NCBI RefSeq assembly: GCF_016135805.1
Contig: NZ_JADWOX010000003.1
Span: 186,001-250,000 of the forward strand
Source: Caulobacter hibisci
Lineage (GTDB): Bacteria; Pseudomonadota; Alphaproteobacteria; Caulobacterales; Caulobacteraceae
Direction of reading: 5' to 3'
Length of the DNA: 64,000 nucleotides
Part shown: piece after piece, positions 54,221-63,554 of the stretch
Layout: each line of letters opens with the position of its first letter
How positions within the stretch are numbered: position 1 is the stretch's first letter
Translations under genes and position numbers: made by a program
The notes under the pieces: generated by a model
The model's database searches: none
The model's input: only the letters and a program-made list of their open reading frames with translations
What the model was told of the DNA's origin: nothing

Positions 54221-54270
54221 GTGCAGACTTATAGCCGCAAGCCGCCCTGTGGGCGAGTCGCGACCGGCGC

Positions 54271-54284
54271 GTTTCACGTGAAAC
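54271..54284. other. parS site 1 (perfect)
   Basis: GTTTCACGTGAAAC, a perfect 14-bp palindrome identical to the ParB target. Located between mnmG and mnmE. Confidence 0.95.
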
Positions 54285-54329
54285 GCCGTGGGCCTATCTG
54301 TGGTCAGGCTGTGGACGGTTCAAGGCGGT

Positions 54330-54343
54330 GTTCCACGTGAAAC
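54330..54343. other. parS site 2 (one mismatch)
   Basis: GTTCCACGTGAAAC differs from the perfect site by one base in the left half. It lies 2 bp beyond the mnmE stop and 59 bp from parS 1. Confidence 0.8.
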
Positions 54344-54345
54344 AT

Positions 54346-55683
54346 TCATTTGCCGATGCAGAAGCTTGAAAACACTCGCTCAAGCACGTCTTCCGGATCG
54401 ATACGGCCGGTGATGCGCGACAGCGCCCGGGCCGCGAGACGAACATCTTCCGCCACAAGTTCCACGTCGTCTGTCTCCGCCAAAGCACGCTCCAGAAAGG
54501 CTCTCGCCTCATCCAGACGCTCGGCATGGCGGATGCGAGTGGCCGCCGGGAACTCCGCACCCGACAATGCCTCCACCACGTGGGCGGTCAAAGCCGACCG
54601 GATCTGGTCCGCGCCATCTGCCCGCGCCGACAGCGCCACCACGTGCAATCCCAGCGCGGCCGTCGCGGCGCGTATGGCCTCTACAGCTGCTGGCGCTACC
54701 AGATCGGTTTTGTTGATCACCAGCCAGTCGCCGGGCCGGACAATTATGTGGGTATCGGAATGTTTCACGTGAAACTGCGCGGCGTCCACGACCCACAGCC
54801 GCAGATCCGCCTCCTCCGCCCAGGCTCGCGCCCGGCGCACGCCCTCGGCCTCGATATCGTCGGCGGTCTCGCGGATCCCGGCCGTATCGGCCAGCAGGGC
54901 CTTGTAGCCGCCCAGCACCAGCGGAACCTCGATGACGTCCCGCGTGGTGCCCGGCGTGGCGGTGACGATGGCCGCGTCGCGCTCGGCCAGGGCGTTGAGC
55001 AAGGTGCTCTTGCCGGCGTTGGGCGCGCCGACCAGGGCGATGCGGAAGCCATCGCGCACCCGCCTGCCACGTGAAACATCGTCCAGGGCCGCGTCGATCT
55101 CGGCGGCCAGGATCTCAAGCCCGGGCCGTGCCCGAGCGGCGACGTCTTCCGGCAGTTCCTCGTCGGGGAAATCGACGGCGGCTTCCAGCATGGCCAGGGC
55201 CTGGACCAGCAGGTCCCGCCAGGCGTCGTAGCGGCGGCCCAGCGCCCCTCCCAGCTGGCCCAGGGCCTGTTTGCGCTGCCCTTCCGTCTCGGCGTCGATC
55301 AGGTCGCCCACGGCCTCGGCCTGGGCCAGGTCGAGCTTGCCGTTCTGAAAGGCGCGGCGGGTGAACTCGCCGGGCTCGGCCAGACGTAGCCCCAGGGCCG
55401 ACAGGGCGCCCAGCAGCGCCTCGACGACCGCCCTGCCCCCGTGCACGTGAAACTCGGCGGCGTCTTCGCCGGTGTAGCTGGCCGGCCCCTGGAACCACAG
55501 CACCAGCGCATCGTCGAGCGCGGCGCCGTCGTGGCGCAGGGTGCGCAGGGCCGCCTGGCGCGGCTTGGGCAGGTTTCCCGTGAGGGCGCGCACGGCATCG
55601 CTGCTGGCCGGACCCGAGACGCGGATCACCGCCACGGCGGCGCGGCCGGCGGCCGTCGCCGGCGCGTAGATCGTATCGACCAT
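54346..55683 (-). CDS. mnmE: tRNA modification GTPase MnmE
   Basis: A 445-residue GTPase partner of MnmG (formerly TrmE). The N-terminal [20 protein letters not shown] and the conserved [12 protein letters not shown] precede the G domain. The G domain shows [18 protein letters not shown], the DTAGIRE box and VINKTDL. The protein ends in the invariant FCIGK. A short segment [16 protein letters not shown] between the DTAG and NKTD boxes is encoded by a perfect parS site, which looks like an inserted stretch. Confidence 0.96.
54762..54775. other. parS site 3 (perfect, inside mnmE)
   Basis: GTTTCACGTGAAAC within the coding sequence of mnmE. On the coding strand it contributes the residues FHVK between the G3 and G4 boxes of the GTPase. 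Confidence 0.95.
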
Positions 55684-55687
55684 CAGA

Positions 55688-55933
55688 TCAGTCGCGCTTG
55701 CCGACCGCCGCTCCGGCCGCGGCCGTCATCAGCTTGCGGAAGCTGTCCTGAGCGCCGGCCCCGAAGGCCATCCAGTTCTTCAGCAGCTCCTCGGGGGCCA
55801 GCATGGCCATGTTTGAATCCATCCGCGCCTGCATCTCTTTGACCAGATGCTCGTTGAGGGGGCTCACGTCCGGCAGGCCCAGAAAGGCCCGGGCCTCGAC
55901 CGGGGTGCAGTCGATCTCGATCGTCATCTTCAT
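55688..55933 (-). CDS. Small conserved protein (DUF6489-like)
   Basis: An 81-residue protein starting [20 protein letters not shown] with [20 protein letters not shown] and ending [17 protein letters not shown]. The helix-rich C-terminus resembles phasin-like small proteins, and I remember similar genes next to mnmE in alphaproteobacteria under DUF6489. It is four bases upstream of mnmE in the same direction, so likely one transcript. Function unknown. Confidence 0.75.
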
Positions 55934-56074
55934 CGATAGAGGTTCCTTGGGAAAAGGTTCCCTGGCGGCGGGCCACGAGATTGTGACGTCGCACCCTGCT
56001 CGCCCCAGGTTAGAGCGCTTCGGTCGAAAGTCCCAATCGGGCCGGAAAACGGCCGAGCGTACGGAGAGAGCCCC

Positions 56075-56773
56075 TTGAGCGAGACCCTCACGATCAACAC
56101 CCCCGACGGCGACTTCTCGGCCTATGTGGCCCGACCGGCCGGCGCCACGGGTGACAATCCCCCTGCCATCGTGGTCATCCAGGAGATCTTCGGCGTCAAC
56201 CAGGTGATGCGCGACATCTGCGACAAGCTGGCCGGCGAAGGCTTCCTGGCCGTCTGCCCCGACCTGTTCTGGCGGATCGAGCCCGGCATCGACATCACCG
56301 ACAAGTCCGAGGCCGAGTGGAAGAAGGCCTTCGAACTGTTCAACGCCTTCGACGTCGACGCCGGCGTGGCCGATATCGACGCCACGATCGACGCCGTCCG
56401 CCCGCTGTCGTCGGGCAAGGTCGGGGCGGTCGGCTACTGCCTGGGCGGCCTGCTGGCCTTCCTGACGGCGACCCGCACCGACGCCGACGCCGCAGTCTCC
56501 TATTATGGAGTCGGCCTGGAGAAGCATGTCGGCGAGGCCGAGAAGCTGGAAAAGCCGCTGCTGCTGCACGTGGCCGAAGAAGACCAGTTCGTGCCCAAGG
56601 AAGCCCAGCAGGTGATCTTCGCCGCCCTGAAGGATCATCCGCAGATCACCCTGCATACCTATGCCGGCCGCGACCACGCCTTTGCCCGCGACGGCGGCGA
56701 GCACTATGACGCCGCCGACGCCGCCACGGCCAACGGCCGCAGCCTGGCCTTCTTCCAGAAGACCCTCGCCTGA
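56075..56773 (+). CDS. Dienelactone hydrolase family protein
   Basis: A 232-residue alpha/beta hydrolase. The Cys nucleophile lies in GAVGYCLGGLLAFLTATRTD near residue 123, the Asp-containing LHVAEEDQFVPKEA near 170, and the His in YAGRDHAFARDGGEHYD near 200, the triad of dienelactone hydrolases. The start is a TTG at 56075 with GGAGAGAG in front. It is followed by the quinone reductase with a one-base overlap (TGATG). Probable role in detoxifying lactones or carboxymethyl esters. Confidence 0.9.
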   Translation: MSETLTINTPDGDFSAYVARPAGATGDNPPAIVVIQEIFGVNQVMRDICDKLAGEGFLAVCPDLFWRIEPGIDITDKSEAEWKKAFELFNAFDVDAGVADIDATIDAVRPLSSGKVGAVGYCLGGLLAFLTATRTDADAAVSYYGVGLEKHVGEAEKLEKPLLLHVAEEDQFVPKEAQQVIFAALKDHPQITLHTYAGRDHAFARDGGEHYDAADAATANGRSLAFFQKTLA

Positions 56774-57738
56774 TGCTGGCCGTCGAAGCCAAGGCCGCTG
56801 GCGGCCCCGAAGTGCTGGAGGTCGTCGAGCGCGACCTCCCCTCGCCCGGCCCCGGCCAGATCCTCGTCCGCCATGCGGCCGTCGGTCTGAACTTCATCGA
56901 CACCTATCACCGCTCGGGCCTCTACCCGGTGAAGTACCCGCAGGTGCTGGGCCTGGAGGCGGCTGGCCACGTGGAAGCCATTGGTGACGGCGTCAGCCGC
57001 TTCGCCGTCGGCGATCGCGTCGCCTATAACGGCACGATGGGCGCCTATGCCGAAGCCTCGGTCGTGCCGGCCGATAGGGCGGTGAAGGTTCCGGAAGGGG
57101 TCAAGCTGGAGGTCGCCGCCGCGGTGCTGCTGAAGGGCATGACGGCCGAGTTCCTGGTCCGCCGGTGCTTCCCCGTCCAGGCCGGCCAGACCGTGCTGGT
57201 CCACGCCGCCGCCGGCGGGGTCGGCCAGATCCTGGTGCAGTGGGTCAAGGCCCTGGGCGCCAACGTCATCGCCACGGTGGGCTCGGAGGCCAAGGCCCAG
57301 ATCGTCCGCGATCTCGGCGCCGACCACGTGATCCTCTACGACCACGAGGACGTCGCCGCCCGGGTGGCCGAGATCACGGGCGGAGCCGGCGTGCCGGTCG
57401 TCTATGACGGCGTCGGCAAGGACACCTTCCAGGGCAGCCTGAAGAGCCTGGGCCGTCGCGGCGTGCTGGTGACCTACGGCAACGCCTCGGGCCCCGTGCC
57501 GCCGTTCGCCCCGCTGGAGCTGGGCGCCAAGTCGGCCTGGATCACCCGCCCCCGCCTGTTCGACTACATCGTCACGACGGAGGAGCTCGACGAGAGCGCC
57601 GCGGCCCTGTTCGAGGTCCTGGCCTCGGGCGCGGTGAAGATCGAGATCGGGCAGCGGTTCCCGCTGGCGGAGGCCCGTCAAGCGCATGAGGCGTTGGAGG
57701 GACGGAAGACGACCGGAGCGACGGTGTTGGTGCCGTAG
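56773..57738 (+). CDS. NADPH:quinone oxidoreductase (zeta-crystallin-like MDR protein)
   Basis: A 321-residue zinc-free medium-chain dehydrogenase. The N-terminal VGLNFIDTYHRSGLYPVKYP, the NADPH loop VLVHAAAGGVGQILVQWVKA and GNASGPVPPFAPLELGAKSA match quinone oxidoreductase (QorA). It is coupled to the dienelactone hydrolase gene upstream. Ends at a large inverted repeat and a bidirectional terminator. Confidence 0.93.
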   Translation: MLAVEAKAAGGPEVLEVVERDLPSPGPGQILVRHAAVGLNFIDTYHRSGLYPVKYPQVLGLEAAGHVEAIGDGVSRFAVGDRVAYNGTMGAYAEASVVPADRAVKVPEGVKLEVAAAVLLKGMTAEFLVRRCFPVQAGQTVLVHAAAGGVGQILVQWVKALGANVIATVGSEAKAQIVRDLGADHVILYDHEDVAARVAEITGGAGVPVVYDGVGKDTFQGSLKSLGRRGVLVTYGNASGPVPPFAPLELGAKSAWITRPRLFDYIVTTEELDESAAALFEVLASGAVKIEIGQRFPLAEARQAHEALEGRKTTGATVLVP

Positions 57739-57748
57739 GCGGGGTAAC

Positions 57749-57847
57749 ACCCCCTCCGGCCCTTCGGGCCACCTCCCCCAGAGGGGGAGGATCTCCGGGC
57801 CAGATGCTCCCCTTCTGGGGGAGGTGGCCCGAAGGGCCGGAGGGGGT
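57749..57847. repeat. Inverted repeat with perfect 34-nt arms
   Basis: The left arm 57749-57782 and the right arm 57814-57847 are exact reverse complements, each containing GGCCC-TTC-GGGCC. The interior is 31 bp. It lies between the convergent quinone reductase and rho, followed by a terminator and a parS site. Confidence 0.85.
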
Positions 57848-57857
57848 CAGCCCCAAC

Positions 57858-57890
57858 AAAAAAGGCCCCGGAGCGATCCGGGGCCTTTCT
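57858..57890. terminator. Bidirectional terminator between the quinone reductase and rho
   Basis: An A-run, then AAAGGCCCCGG-AGCGAT-CCGGGGCCTTT, then CT. A tract on the left and T tract on the right make it work for both strands; it separates two convergent genes. Confidence 0.9.
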
Positions 57891-57893
57891 CGT

Positions 57894-57907
57894 GTTTCAC
57901 GTGAAAC
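57894..57907. other. parS site 4 (perfect)
   Basis: GTTTCACGTGAAAC, perfect palindrome, four bases beyond the terminator and 7 bp before the rho stop codon. About 4.5 kb from the origin gap. Confidence 0.95.
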
Positions 57908-57914
57908 ACCAAGC

Positions 57915-60128: not shown

Positions 60129-61180
60129 GCGGCGGCTCCTGCACAAGGTTGGTCGTCTTCGCAGATCAGCGACGACGGATCAGCGAGGGCCTGCGTGACC
60201 AGAGTCCCCAAACAATCGATGAACGCCGGCGTCACGCCCAGGGCCGGTACGCGGACATAGATCGAGCCGCCGTGCTTGTAGGCCAGCTCGCGATATTCGA
60301 CGTCGAGCTCGACCAGGGTCTCGATGTGCTCGGAGACGAAGGCAATCGGGGTGACCACGAGCGCAAGACCCGCCTTGGCCGCGGCCTCGACCTCCTCGTC
60401 CGTCGACGGACCGATCCACTTCAGCGGACCGACCCGGCTCTGGTAGCTGATCTTCCAGTCGACGCCCTCGCCGAGGATGTCGCCCAGCTGGGCGACCACG
60501 GCGGCGGCCGTGGCCTCGACATGGCGCTGGTAAGGGTCGCCGCCGAGGATCACCTTCTCAGGCAGGCCATGGGCCGAGAACAGGATCCGCGCCGGCTTGG
60601 GCGATCCGGCCTTGAGATATTCCGCCCGGATCAGATCCGCGTGCGCCTGCACGAAACCCTCGGCGGTCGGATAGCAGCAGACGGTCGTGGTGCGGCTGGC
60701 GTCCTTGCGACCAGTGAGCTTGCGCCAGGCGCGTTTCCACGCATTCAGCGACGAGGCCGTGGTCGTGGTCGAGTACTGCGGATAGAGCGGCAGCAGCACC
60801 ACCTCGTCCGGCGCGAAGGCCTTGACCGCCTTGGCGGTCTCGCCGGTCAGCGGGTTCCAGTAGCGCATGGCGATGAAGGTCTGGACCGTGTCGCCCGGCA
60901 GGCGCTGGGCCAGCACCGCCTCGAGCGCCTTGGCCTGTTTCTGGGTTTCCGGGAGCAGCGGCGAGCCGCCGCCCATCAGGGCGTAGTTCTCGCGCGCCAG
61001 CTTGGCCCGGGTGGTCGAGATCAGGGTCGCCACCGGATAGCGGACGAAGAACGGCGCCTGGATGATCGCCGGATCGCGGAACAGGTTGAACAGGAACGGC
61101 CGCACGGCCGCCTGGCCGTCGGGCCCGCCGAGATTGAACAGGACGACGGCGATCCTGCGCCCGCTCTTCAGCTCGCTCAT
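60125..61180 (-). CDS. hemH: Ferrochelatase
   Basis: A 351-residue enzyme that inserts iron into protoporphyrin IX. IAVVLFNLGGPDGQAAVRPF is the first strand; VVLLPLYPQYSTTTTASSLN and LFSAHGLPEKVILGGDPYQR hold the catalytic His, and AFVSEHIETLVELDVEYREL is another family block. The C-terminal tail has Cys at 323, 340 and 346 (LICEDDQPCAG), and there is a CC pair near residue 195, fitting the [2Fe-2S] type reported for Caulobacter ferrochelatase. The frame is open to 61279; I chose the ATG at 61180. Confidence 0.94.
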   Translation of the reverse strand: MSELKSGRRIAVVLFNLGGPDGQAAVRPFLFNLFRDPAIIQAPFFVRYPVATLISTTRAKLARENYALMGGGSPLLPETQKQAKALEAVLAQRLPGDTVQTFIAMRYWNPLTGETAKAVKAFAPDEVVLLPLYPQYSTTTTASSLNAWKRAWRKLTGRKDASRTTTVCCYPTAEGFVQAHADLIRAEYLKAGSPKPARILFSAHGLPEKVILGGDPYQRHVEATAAAVVAQLGDILGEGVDWKISYQSRVGPLKWIGPSTDEEVEAAAKAGLALVVTPIAFVSEHIETLVELDVEYRELAYKHGGSIYVRVPALGVTPAFIDCLGTLVTQALADPSSLICEDDQPCAGAAA

Positions 61181-62205
61181 TGGCCGGTCACGCGCTTGAG
61201 CACCTGCTCGACATGCGGGATCGGCGTGTCGGGCAGGATGCCGTGGCCCAGGTTGAATATATAGGGGCCCTGCCCCCACTGCTCCAGCATCTGGTCGACG
61301 CGAGCGTCCAGCGCCGGTCCTCCGGCCCGCAGCAGCAGCGGATCAAGGGCGCCCTGGATGGTCTTGGTCTTCTGGATGGTCTGTCCGAGCTTCGCCGAGG
61401 CCGAGGTGTCGAGCGCCACCCCCTCCACCGGCACGGCCTGCGCGTAGGCCTCGACCAGCGTTCCGGCCCCCCGCGGGAAGCCGATGATCGGCACGGTCAC
61501 GCCGCGGGCGCGCAGGCCCTCGACGATGGCGATGTGCGGCCGGGTCACCAGGCGCTCGAACAGCGGCTCGGACAGGCCCTCGGCCCAGCTCTCGAACAGC
61601 TTCAGCGCCTGGGCGCCCGAGGCGGCCTGCATGGCCAGGTAGTCCACCGTAGCGTCGACCAGGATCTGGATCAGGCGATCGAGCTTGTCGGCGTTCTGGT
61701 AGGCGAAGGTGCGCGCGCCGGAGCGATCGCTGGAGCCGCCTTCGATCATGTAGGTGGCCACGGTCCAGGGCGCGCCGGCGAAACCGATCAGGGCCTTTGA
61801 GGGGTCGATGTCGGCGCGAACGAGCGACAGCGTCTCGCCGACTGCCTTCAGGGCCTCGCCCGCCTGGTCCACCTTGTCGGCCATGGCGTCGAGATCGGGC
61901 AGTTCGCCAAGCTTGGGACCTTCGCCGGCCTCGAACCAGACCTTCTGACCGAGAGCGCCGGGGATCAGCAGGATGTCGGCGAAGACGATGGCCGCGTCAT
62001 ACGGAAAGCGGCGCAGCGGCTGCAGCGTCACCTCGGCGGCCTTTTCCGGGTTCAGGCAGAAGCTGATGAAGTCCGGCGTCGTCGCCCGCACGGCGCGGTA
62101 CTCGGGGAGATACCGTCCCGCCTGGCGCATGAACCAGACCGGAGGACGCTCGGCGGTCTCGCCAGCCAGCACGGAGAGAAACTTCGGGATCGGGGCGCTC
62201 GTCAT
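61177..62205 (-). CDS. hemE: Uroporphyrinogen decarboxylase
   Basis: A 342-residue enzyme that decarboxylates uroporphyrinogen III to coproporphyrinogen III. It carries PPVWFMRQAGRYLPEYRAVR and the following PEKAAEVTLQPLRRFPYDAA, the family start, then GFAGAPWTVATYMIEGGSSD. It is the gene flanking the origin gap on its left and its promoter lies in the origin. It overlaps hemH as ATGA. Confidence 0.97.
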   Translation of the reverse strand: MTSAPIPKFLSVLAGETAERPPVWFMRQAGRYLPEYRAVRATTPDFISFCLNPEKAAEVTLQPLRRFPYDAAIVFADILLIPGALGQKVWFEAGEGPKLGELPDLDAMADKVDQAGEALKAVGETLSLVRADIDPSKALIGFAGAPWTVATYMIEGGSSDRSGARTFAYQNADKLDRLIQILVDATVDYLAMQAASGAQALKLFESWAEGLSEPLFERLVTRPHIAIVEGLRARGVTVPIIGFPRGAGTLVEAYAQAVPVEGVALDTSASAKLGQTIQKTKTIQGALDPLLLRAGGPALDARVDQMLEQWGQGPYIFNLGHGILPDTPIPHVEQVLKRVTGQ

Positions 62206-62258
62206 ACCGGCGTTAAATCCCGGCGAGCCGTTCCACTCAAGTCCGGGAGACCCCGTAC

Positions 62259-62299
62259 CCTCTTATTCTTCTTAAAAATAAGATTCTTAGAAAGATAGG
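62259..62299. other. AT-rich unwinding block of the origin
   Basis: CTCTTATTCTTCTTAAAAAT and the following AAGATTCTTAGAAAGATAGG are about 70% AT, the most AT-rich stretch I notice in the window. It contains one GATTC methylation site (62282-62286) and inverted TTCTTA/TAAGAT elements. This fits a DNA-unwinding element and overlaps the hemE promoter region. Confidence 0.75.
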
Positions 62300-62383
62300 A
62301 GGAAGGGGATGGGCAGGTGCAAGGCGGGGATAAGTCCGTCTTTGTGGAGGACTCCCACCGGCCCTACTCAGTATGCCCAAGCT

Positions 62384-62392
62384 TGGTCCACA
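62384..62392 (+). promoter_or_regulatory. DnaA-box-like site (G-box type)
   Basis: TGGTCCACA differs in one base from the Caulobacter G-box TGATCCACA. Confidence 0.65.
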
Positions 62393-62415
62393 TGGGGGTC
62401 ATACCTTGTGAACTC

Positions 62416-62424
62416 CGTGGACAA
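62416..62424 (-). promoter_or_regulatory. DnaA-box-like site
   Basis: TTGTCCACG on the minus strand, two mismatches to TTATCCACA. Confidence 0.5.
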
Positions 62425-62476
62425 GCCGCCAAGCCGCCGGAATCCCTCAGGAACCCAGCGGCTGGTAAAGACGAAA

Positions 62477-62491
62477 TTAACCCTTCGTTAG
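62477..62491. promoter_or_regulatory. CtrA-type binding site
   Basis: TTAA-CCCTTCG-TTAG has seven of the eight conserved bases of the CtrA consensus TTAA-N7-TTAA with exact spacing. TTAA is rare in this GC-rich window. CtrA blocks initiation at such sites in C. crescentus. Confidence 0.75.
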
Positions 62492-62493
62492 GA

Positions 62494-62502
62494 GTTTCCA
62501 CA
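62494..62502 (+). promoter_or_regulatory. DnaA-box-like site
   Basis: GTTTCCACA, two mismatches to TTATCCACA, three bases after the CtrA-type site. Confidence 0.45.
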
Positions 62503-62549
62503 GGCGTGGACGGACGCTCGGGCACAGGTCCCGGATCACAGGTTCAAGC

Positions 62550-62555
62550 TGGGGA
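62550..62555 (-). promoter_or_regulatory. W-box-like DnaA site
   Basis: TGGGGA, i.e. TCCCCA on the minus strand, the weak DnaA W-box described for Cori. Confidence 0.5.
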
Positions 62556-62632
62556 TTGTCCGGCGTCAATGAGGCCGTTTATCACAGGGGCGCGGCGCAA
62601 GGTCGCGACGAGGCGCATTTGGCGCCCGCTTG

Positions 62633-62638
62633 TCCCCA
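62633..62638 (+). promoter_or_regulatory. W-box-like DnaA site
   Basis: TCCCCA on the plus strand, 14 bp before the DUF299 start codon. Confidence 0.5.
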
Positions 62639-62651
62639 GGGGGCGCCCAGA

Positions 62652-63554
62652 GTGGTAAAGCAATCTTTAACGGACGATCCACAGGAAGGCGCCTCGGCTG
62701 AGGCCGATCGCCACACCGCGCGGTTCGCCACCTACTTCCACATCCACCTGGTGTCGGACTCCACGGGCGAGACGCTCAACGCCATGGCGCGCGCGGTTTG
62801 CGCCCGTTTCACCGACATCCTGCCCATCGAACACATCTACGCGCTTGTTCGTTCCACCCGTCAGTTGGACCGGGCGCTGGAAGAGATCGCCGGCGCGCCG
62901 GGCGTGGTGATGCACACCATCATCGACCCCAACCTGCGGGCGGCGCTGGAGGAAGGCTGCCGCAAGCTCGACATGCCGTGCATCGCCGCCCTGGATCCGG
63001 TGGTCAGCGCCATGTCGCGCTATCTGGGGGCCAAGATCTCGACGCGGGTGGGCGCGCAACACGCGCTGAACAACGATTATTTCGACCGCATCGAGGCGCT
63101 GGACTACGCCATCGCCCACGACGACGGCCAGGGCGGCCAGGATCTGACCCAGGCCGACGTCATCCTGGTGGGGGTGTCGCGCACGTCCAAGACCCCGACC
63201 TGCATCTATCTGGCCCATCGCGGCGTGCGGGCCGCCAATGTGCCGCTGGTGCCGGGCCGCCCGCCCCCCGACCAGCTGTTCGAGCTGAAGAACACCCTGA
63301 TCGTCGGCCTGATGACCAGCCCTGAGCGGCTGATCCAGATCCGTCGCAACCGCCTGCTGTCCCTCAAGGAGAACCGCGAGAGCGACTATATCGACACCGA
63401 CAGCGTGCGGGCCGAGATCATCGCCGCCCGCCGGCTGTTCGAGAAGAACGGCTGGCCGATCATCGACGTCACCCGCCGGTCGGTGGAAGAGACGGCGGCG
63501 GCGATCATCAACCTGCTGTCGGGCGGCCGCGGCCAGGTCGAGGTGCTGGGATGA
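62652..63554 (+). CDS. DUF299 kinase/pyrophosphorylase (PPDK/PEP-synthase regulatory protein type)
   Basis: A 300-residue bifunctional serine/threonine kinase and phosphorylase that switches pyruvate phosphate dikinase or PEP synthase. It opens FATYFHIHLVSDSTGETLNA, has the P-loop-like VILVGVSRTSKTPTCIYLAH near 172 and KNTLIVGLMTSPERLIQIRR, and ends INLLSGGRG. This is the gene that flanks Cori on the right in C. crescentus. I chose GTG at 62652 with AGGGGG upstream; an earlier TTG at 62556 would run into the origin. A CtrA-like TAAA-N7-TTAA (62656-62670) and a CGATCCACA (62675-62683) lie in its first codons. Confidence 0.93.
   Translation: MVKQSLTDDPQEGASAEADRHTARFATYFHIHLVSDSTGETLNAMARAVCARFTDILPIEHIYALVRSTRQLDRALEEIAGAPGVVMHTIIDPNLRAALEEGCRKLDMPCIAALDPVVSAMSRYLGAKISTRVGAQHALNNDYFDRIEALDYAIAHDDGQGGQDLTQADVILVGVSRTSKTPTCIYLAHRGVRAANVPLVPGRPPPDQLFELKNTLIVGLMTSPERLIQIRRNRLLSLKENRESDYIDTDSVRAEIIAARRLFEKNGWPIIDVTRRSVEETAAAIINLLSGGRGQVEVLG
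62656..62670. promoter_or_regulatory. CtrA-like site in the first codons of the DUF299 gene
   Basis: TAAA-GCAATCT-TTAA has correct spacing with one mismatch in the left half. It suggests the functional origin extends past the chosen start codon. Confidence 0.5.
62675..62683 (+). promoter_or_regulatory. DnaA G-box-like site
   Basis: CGATCCACA differs in the first base from the G-box TGATCCACA. It lies next to the CtrA-like site. Confidence 0.6.

Follow-up and report, generated by a model that had tools for sequence, protein, structure and literature searches.

A predicted Cori-type replication origin with rearranged CtrA sites and an overlapping DUF299 gene start in Caulobacter hibisci

Background

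In Caulobacter crescentus, the gap between hemE and a COG1806 gene was experimentally identified as the chromosomal replication origin, Cori (PMC1914354). Published accounts describe five CtrA boxes in Cori, four of which are conserved among freshwater Caulobacter, DnaA sites termed G-boxes that are defined by a T-to-G change, and parS less than 8 kb away (PMC4468827). An IHF site, TAACGCTCTGTT, overlaps a CtrA box (PMC4285127), and a 182-nt RNA, CcnA (CCNA_R0094), extends from an inner CtrA box to a further one at its end and makes contact, through its CCCC, with GGGG close to the starts of ctrA and gcrA (PMC8959179). Origins of similar neighbourhood logic, with predicted CtrA, DnaA and IHF sites, were placed between hemE and COG1806 in Rickettsia and between hemE and COG1253 in Wolbachia and Ehrlichia (PMC1914354). 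In Caulobacter sp. K31, the distance of dnaA from the origin exceeds that in NA1000 by about 50 kb as the result of an inversion near the origin (PMC4221894).

Here we analysed a stretch of 64,000 nucleotides from Caulobacter hibisci (contig NZ_JADWOX010000003.1, positions 186,001 to 250,000 of the forward strand), hereafter called the window, which is part of a 349-kb contig in a 5.57-Mb genome of 49 contigs. The segment from about 62206 to 62684 of the window, between hemE and a DUF299 (COG1806) gene, is very likely the chromosomal replication origin and the positional ortholog of Cori. The place is a textbook one and the origin, very probably, of a known kind, but judged from the sequence comparison it is a variant with rebuilt CtrA sites and a gene start that lies inside its right edge. 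A literature search, outside whose coverage key subscription papers lay, found neither the overlap of the DUF299 start with a CtrA box nor the turnover of CtrA boxes.

Gene order and signals of the predicted origin

The gap was compared in 80 loci (the window and 79 others), from which gaps were extracted and motifs scored. Two loci with no hemE in reach (L041 and L102) and 16 loci in the opposite orientation were omitted from the gap analysis, and L083-L112, which mostly duplicate named loci, were kept out of the counts. The core Caulobacter set comprised 31 loci, the window and L003-L032; a 32-row alignment also included L033, whose DUF299 frame is broken and which is outside the 31-locus counts. 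CtrA boxes were scored only at one mismatch or fewer, and the background for motif counts in the window was a set of 1029 other tiles of 480 bp. The closest named loci were those of Caulobacter sp. D5, C. radicis, C. zeae and C. endophyticus, with 98-99% identity of the DUF299 protein.

The original prediction, made from the letters alone, had proposed that this gap is the chromosomal origin and that its gene order is that of Cori. Both points are supported, by gene order, the motif set, a parS cluster, the skew switch of a relative and a genus-wide sequence footprint. The left flank is hemE, encoding uroporphyrinogen decarboxylase (61177-62205, minus strand; Pfam URO-D, E 8.6e-101), and the right flank is the DUF299/PPSR gene (62652-63554, plus strand), whose Kinase-PPPase domain (PF03618, E 7.2e-93, residues 31-286) is full-length, covering profile positions 1-256 of 256. 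This divergent order was kept in 79 of the 80 loci, the exception being L041, which ends before hemE.

CtrA boxes, DnaA G- and W-boxes and an AT-rich block occur together in the gap. Three of the window's four CtrA matches fall there, with 0.46 expected in the whole window, and none of the 1029 other tiles held as many. Across the 31 core gaps, CtrA boxes numbered 114 (0.1 expected from the flanks), W-boxes 87 (3.8 expected), G-box matches 37 (9.8 expected) and GANTC sites 97 (17.3 expected). The predicted AT-rich block was found at 62258-62296 (74% AT) and is a candidate unwinding region, in a gap whose segment 62206-62651 has 59% GC against 65-74% in 2-kb windows of the stretch. One of the three predicted GANTC (CcrM) sites, at 62282-62286, lies within this block, and the others are at 62350-62354 and 62440-62444; at least three occurred in only 13 of the 1029 other tiles, and the window as a whole is about sixfold depleted of GANTC (48 against 273 in dinucleotide shuffles). 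In addition, four parS-like sites at three mismatches or fewer, where 0.02 were expected, start at 54270, 54329, 54761 and 57893 (span 54270-57908; 2, 1, 1 and 0 mismatches), which is 4.3-7.9 kb left of the gap. The window has in common with Cori of C. crescentus the flanking genes, the AT block, G- and W-box DnaA sites, CtrA boxes with G-boxes near them, and parS no more than about 8 kb off (PMC4468827, PMC1914354). In strain K31, dnaA and the origin are separated by tens of kb (PMC4221894), and here too dnaA is found at a distance, some 64 kb to the left of the gap. The origins of Rickettsia, Wolbachia and Ehrlichia are like the window in neighbourhood and predicted sites, but their genomes are mostly AT-rich and the sites there are themselves predictions (PMC1914354).

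The genome also encodes a CtrA protein 99% identical to the query sequence, and GcrA-family genes are present. The GcrA family gave four matches above the cut-off, three of them strong (contigs C5, C46 and C1), where a single master regulator might be expected.

A plot of GC skew along the chromosome had been suggested as a check. In a complete relative (G194) the skew changes sign at the orthologous gap, from -0.022 just left to +0.021 just right of it, while the window's own 349-kb contig gave a noisy profile with no clear sign change. The G194 skew was taken from 40 sampled pieces of 20 kb, whose arm means were -0.016 on the left (17 samples) and +0.011 on the right (23 samples); by a split score that we devised ourselves, the gap came out narrowly at the top of 287 grid positions.

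Several of these results weigh against the origin assignment. The skew of the own contig is uninformative; in G194 the right arm is negative in 9 of 23 samples, including three at 82-162 kb, and the left arm is positive in 2 of 17. Moreover, the best score is approached to within 0.003 over a G194 interval that reaches 40 kb to the left of the gap and about 210 kb to its right, so the skew locates the origin only to that range. The two G-box-like sites of the gap each differ from TGATCCACA by a single base, and the window has no excess of TCCCCA (25 copies against 34 expected), with at least two copies in 24 of the 1029 other tiles. It is the genus-wide conservation of their positions, not their count, that supports these weak G- and W-sites.

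Positions of the DnaA sites

DnaA boxes with mismatches had been predicted, and two sites, each one mismatch from TGATCCACA, were located: TGGTCCACA at 62384-62392 (plus strand), in the position called G1, with a CACA core in 31/31 core loci, and CGATCCACA at 62675-62683 (plus strand), in the position called G2, where C. crescentus Cori has TGATCCACA. At least two such G-box matches occurred in 13 of the 1029 other tiles, and nothing within one mismatch of TTATCCACA was found in the gap. The two predicted TCCCCA elements are inverted W-boxes, W- at 62550-62555 (minus strand) and W+ at 62633-62638 (plus strand); the latter, recognised by motif search and spacing, stands immediately ahead of an AGGGGG Shine-Dalgarno-like run.

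Conserved islands alternate with variable DNA in the 32-row alignment, and the distances among these islands hardly vary. The distance from GGGGAT of W- to TCCCCA of W+ is 82 bp, and that from the start codon of the DUF299 gene to GATCCACAGGA is 24 bp, in 31/31 loci each. The sequence TTGTGAA (YTGTKAA; 62406-62412) is 17 bp from the G1 core in 31/31 and 144-147 bp from W-, and W+ precedes the start codon by 18 or 19 bp. An extra base ahead of the start codon occurs in 8 of the 31 loci, which the positions of W+ and the right-hand CtrA box assign to the window's clade. Two further conserved elements were recognised in this way: the W-box-like CGGGGATAA at 62325-62333, 64 bp from the G1 core in 30/31, and TTTATCACAG at 62578-62587, which looks like a DnaA box with one C missing and lies 27 bp from W- in 30/31 (the loci with the pattern). 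Whereas spacing is near-rigid between CGGGGATAA and the right G-box, CTCAAGYCC stands anywhere from 77 to 98 bp away from CGGGGATAA. One TTATCACAG and three distances to FA codons were not matched by the pattern of the spacing scan.

Turnover of CtrA boxes in the window's clade

A TTAA-N7-TTAG site and a second TTAA-type dyad had been predicted in the gap. Both were found, as TTAACCCTTCGTTAG at 62477-62491 and TAAAGACGAAATTAA at 62466-62480, and they have one TTAA half-site in common. Together they form an array, TAAA-N7-TTAA-N7-TTAG (62466-62491), of three half-sites 11 bp apart, that is, two overlapping boxes, which is present in 8/8 loci of the window's clade. Another box, called e (TAAAGCAATCTTTAA, 62656-62670), lies within codons 2-7 of the DUF299 gene and has one mismatch or fewer in 31/31 core loci.

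This set differs from the five-box C. crescentus type, which is represented here by the C. vibrioides locus L026. In L026, boxes a-e stand at -449, -428, -306, -258 and -48 from a fixed codon near 62700, and box c, TTAACGCTCTGTTAA, includes the published IHF sequence (PMC4285127). The window has only the new overlapping pair and a degenerate box e, which alone of the five is in place. It has no IHF/CtrA dual box, reading CATACCTTGTGAAC where that box would be, and at the old position of box d its aligned sequence is CTCAGGAACCCAG. The conserved TTGTGAA still marks the position of the C. crescentus dual site, with the CtrA halves missing here.

The core loci fall into three groups by their boxes. 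In group I (L017-L031), box a is present in 5/15 loci, b in 15/15, c in 12/15 and d in 15/15; in group II (L009-L016), b and d are present in 8/8 and c in 0/8; in group III (the window, L003-L008 and L032), a-d are present in 0/8 and the new array in 8/8. Group III is a single clade with support of 100/100 in a rough bootstrap, and groups I and II were not recovered as single clades in the tree of this gene. As a side observation, L006, recorded as C. vibrioides strain T5M6, groups inside the radicis/zeae/endophyticus clade, so its species name looks wrong.

These patterns suggest that CtrA control was rebuilt in the window's clade, the IHF/CtrA dual box having gone and box d having been replaced by an array shifted to the right. 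With boxes a-d lost and only the array and box e present, any CtrA gating that operates here would be exerted at the centre and right of the origin. At one mismatch or fewer, the threshold used, the left half of the group III origin has no CtrA box; weaker boxes may exist there.

In the proposed scheme, DnaA would first bind the two moderate G-box-like sites, then spread across the weak W-boxes and open the AT-rich block. In a non-replicating cell, phosphorylated CtrA would exclude DnaA through the three-half-site array and box e, and CcrM would methylate the GANTC sites of the gap.

The DUF299 gene start at the right edge

The original prediction had noted that the right-hand CtrA-like and G-box-like sites fall inside the DUF299 gene if GTG 62652 is its start, and had asked where the origin ends. 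GTG 62652 (TTG in L016 and L029) is the best-supported start, being the only in-frame start common to 31/31 core loci, which makes box e and the right DnaA box codons 2-11 of DUF299. By sequence, the last CtrA box and DnaA box of the origin thus lie within the open reading frame. Codons 2-11 read V(K/N)Q(S/P/T)LTDDPQ and spell both box e and G2, the latter within codons 8-11.

A sister clade (L034-L040) has the module TTAA-N7-TTAACG...ATCCACAGG in 7/7 loci, upstream of a later ATG. The module is out of frame or stopped in 4/7; in the other three the frame is open and translation would be possible. An ATG near the domain is available in 7/7, and most Phenylobacterium-type loci also have starts near the domain, for which reason the translated extension is probably derived in core Caulobacter. 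The DnaA site of the sister clade is CTATCCACA in 6/7 loci and CCATCCACA in 1/7. The T-to-G change that defines G-boxes (PMC4468827) would therefore fall on the same branch as the extension, which is a coincidence and no proof of cause. A stricter module pattern missed 7/30 of L083-L112, one of them (L112) a sister-type locus by identity (83%), and 5/30 of L003-L032; we judged the latter misses to be limits of the pattern, as the alignment and a looser box search show sites there.

DnaA or CtrA bound on codons 2-11 would lie across the DUF299 start, so that transcription of the gene could be throttled by the state of the origin. That DUF299 transcription is tied in this way is far less certain than the identity of the origin. 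We offer one broader reading as a tentative one, which may well prove wrong: in core Caulobacter, the right module of the origin became the translated start of the PPSR gene, coinciding with the change from a CTATCCACA-type site to the G-box TGATCCACA, so that origin occupancy and expression of the kinase gene would be physically coupled, and the origin's left half escaped direct CtrA control in the clade of the window.

A projected CcnA-like transcript

When the CtrA-box geometry described for CcnA (PMC8959179) is applied to the window, a CcnA-like transcript would occupy 62514-62690 on the plus strand, both ends being projected. Like CcnA, the interval runs from an inner CtrA box to box e, has CCCC at W+ and would have GGGG targets near the ctrA and gcrA starts. 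It differs in that the window's inner CtrA box lies further to the right, so that the projected transcript would be slightly shorter. The CCCC of W+ is common to 31/31 core loci and is the sole CCCC of the interval in L026. In this genome, GGGGAGGG stands a short distance ahead of the ctrA start codon, ATG, and GGGG is also present upstream of the best GcrA-family gene (L140). Since the projected RNA runs into the DUF299 start, the CcnA interval looks like the leader of DUF299, and DnaA or CtrA on codons 2-11 may also affect the CcnA-like transcript. A search of Rfam gave no match at the curated score, the best being a chance match with E 0.92.

Alternative explanations

The gap might be only a divergent promoter for hemE and DUF299 under CtrA, DnaA and CcrM control, with replication beginning elsewhere, for example at dnaA. 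DnaA motifs do mark promoters as well: in C. crescentus they have been associated with 77 start sites under cell-cycle regulation (PMC4287350). In addition, the region upstream of dnaA is about as AT-rich (43%) as the gap. However, the 480 bp upstream of dnaA contain no CtrA box, W-box or G-box (CtrA and G-boxes at one mismatch) and a single GANTC, the skew of the complete relative splits best, though broadly, at the orthologous gap, the parS cluster is close to the gap, and the orthologous gap of C. crescentus is the experimentally identified Cori (PMC1914354). We thus consider a promoter-only gap extremely improbable. The dnaA upstream region was rejected as a rival origin, nearly all origin signals being missing there.

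With the gap taken as the origin, the conservation of 62652-62684 could still have other causes than the double use, as DNA sites and as coding sequence, that we prefer. It could reflect the N-terminal protein of DUF299 only, since KQxLTDDPQ hardly varies as a peptide and stays in frame in 31/31 loci, and four-fold degenerate sites alone are only slightly more fixed in the block than in the gene body (0.85, from four sites, against 0.78). This is very improbable in view of codon choice: the top codon is used at 0.93 in the nine conserved columns of the block against 0.81 in the body (p 0.003 by permutation, with 3 of 230 stretches of the body reaching this value), and the TTA at 62667-62669, in a CtrA half-site, is the sole TTA leucine codon among 4237 codons of ten window genes. 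Moreover, in the sister clade the CtrA-box and TCCACA module precedes a later ATG, and in more than half of the loci it is either out of frame or interrupted by a stop. The opposite proposal, that the block consists of DNA sites only and the protein starts downstream at a non-standard codon, is unlikely in our judgement. Speaking for it are the starts near the domain in the sister clade and Phenylobacterium-type loci and the weak third-position excess past codon 11; the latter, a sign of weak protein selection in the spacer, also counts against the start at GTG 62652, as do in-frame upstream TTGs at 62556 and 62619 in the window, although upstream starts occur in only some loci (several clade members). 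On the other hand, no in-frame ATG, GTG or TTG lies between GTG 62652 and codon 33 in 30/31 core loci (L023 has one GTG), and the start is offset by -48, -51 or -54 from the fixed codon, all multiples of three, without stops in 31/31. The inverted W-box pair, finally, may be mainly an RNA stem of the CcnA-like transcript instead of DnaA sites. In a consensus fold, CTGGGGAT is paired with GTCCCCAG, each pair being formed in 30-31 of the 31 rows, with a shuffled-column z of -6.3 on the plus strand and -8.5 for a shorter piece; in C. crescentus, a CCCC loop is the CcnA contact (PMC8959179). Nevertheless, the minus-strand control also reached z -3.7, the window's own minimum-energy fold lacks the stem and is no better than that of shuffles (z -1.08), and the stem pairs show no two-sided change, which was seen in only one pair of a separate three-pair helix (CG in 14, GC in 8, broken in 9 of 31 rows); the fixed 82-bp spacing of W- and W+ fits DNA geometry better. 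We consider this role quite unlikely and, given the control, the absence of two-sided change and the window's own fold, do not claim a W-box RNA stem.

Other features of the locus

A hemE promoter probably lies at 62212-62244 on the minus strand, where conserved islands of the 32-row alignment resemble the housekeeping consensus: a conserved -10-like TTTAA lies within 62212-62219 and a conserved -35-like CTCAAGTCC (minus strand GGACTTGAG) at 62236-62244. The hemE mRNA of C. crescentus is leaderless (PMC4117421). CTCAAGYCC is present in 31/31 core loci. Sigma-70 and terminator scans of 62100-62900 gave no match of either kind.

Pfam confirmed the identities of hemE, DUF299, rho, mnmE and mnmG, and parA, parB, rsmG, leuS and hemH were named by eye from their sequences. 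The parS-like sites lie within 3.6 kb, one inside the mnmE coding sequence and the perfect one just beyond the end of rho. An open frame of 113 codons at 62317-62658 spans most of the gap and is probably spurious. In L033 (Caulobacter sp. B11), the DUF299 frame is broken near its start, possibly through an error of the draft assembly.

Implications

Cori is a model for the gating of chromosome replication by a response regulator. The window's clade, in which the DnaA side is near-rigid and one CtrA box is kept while the others were lost or moved, would be a natural experiment that could separate which CtrA sites matter. Deletion of the DUF299 start or of ccnA would also cut the origin, which calls for caution with such mutants. 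A right edge that serves both as origin and as coding sequence may provide a testable link from the occupancy of the origin to the PPSR gene.

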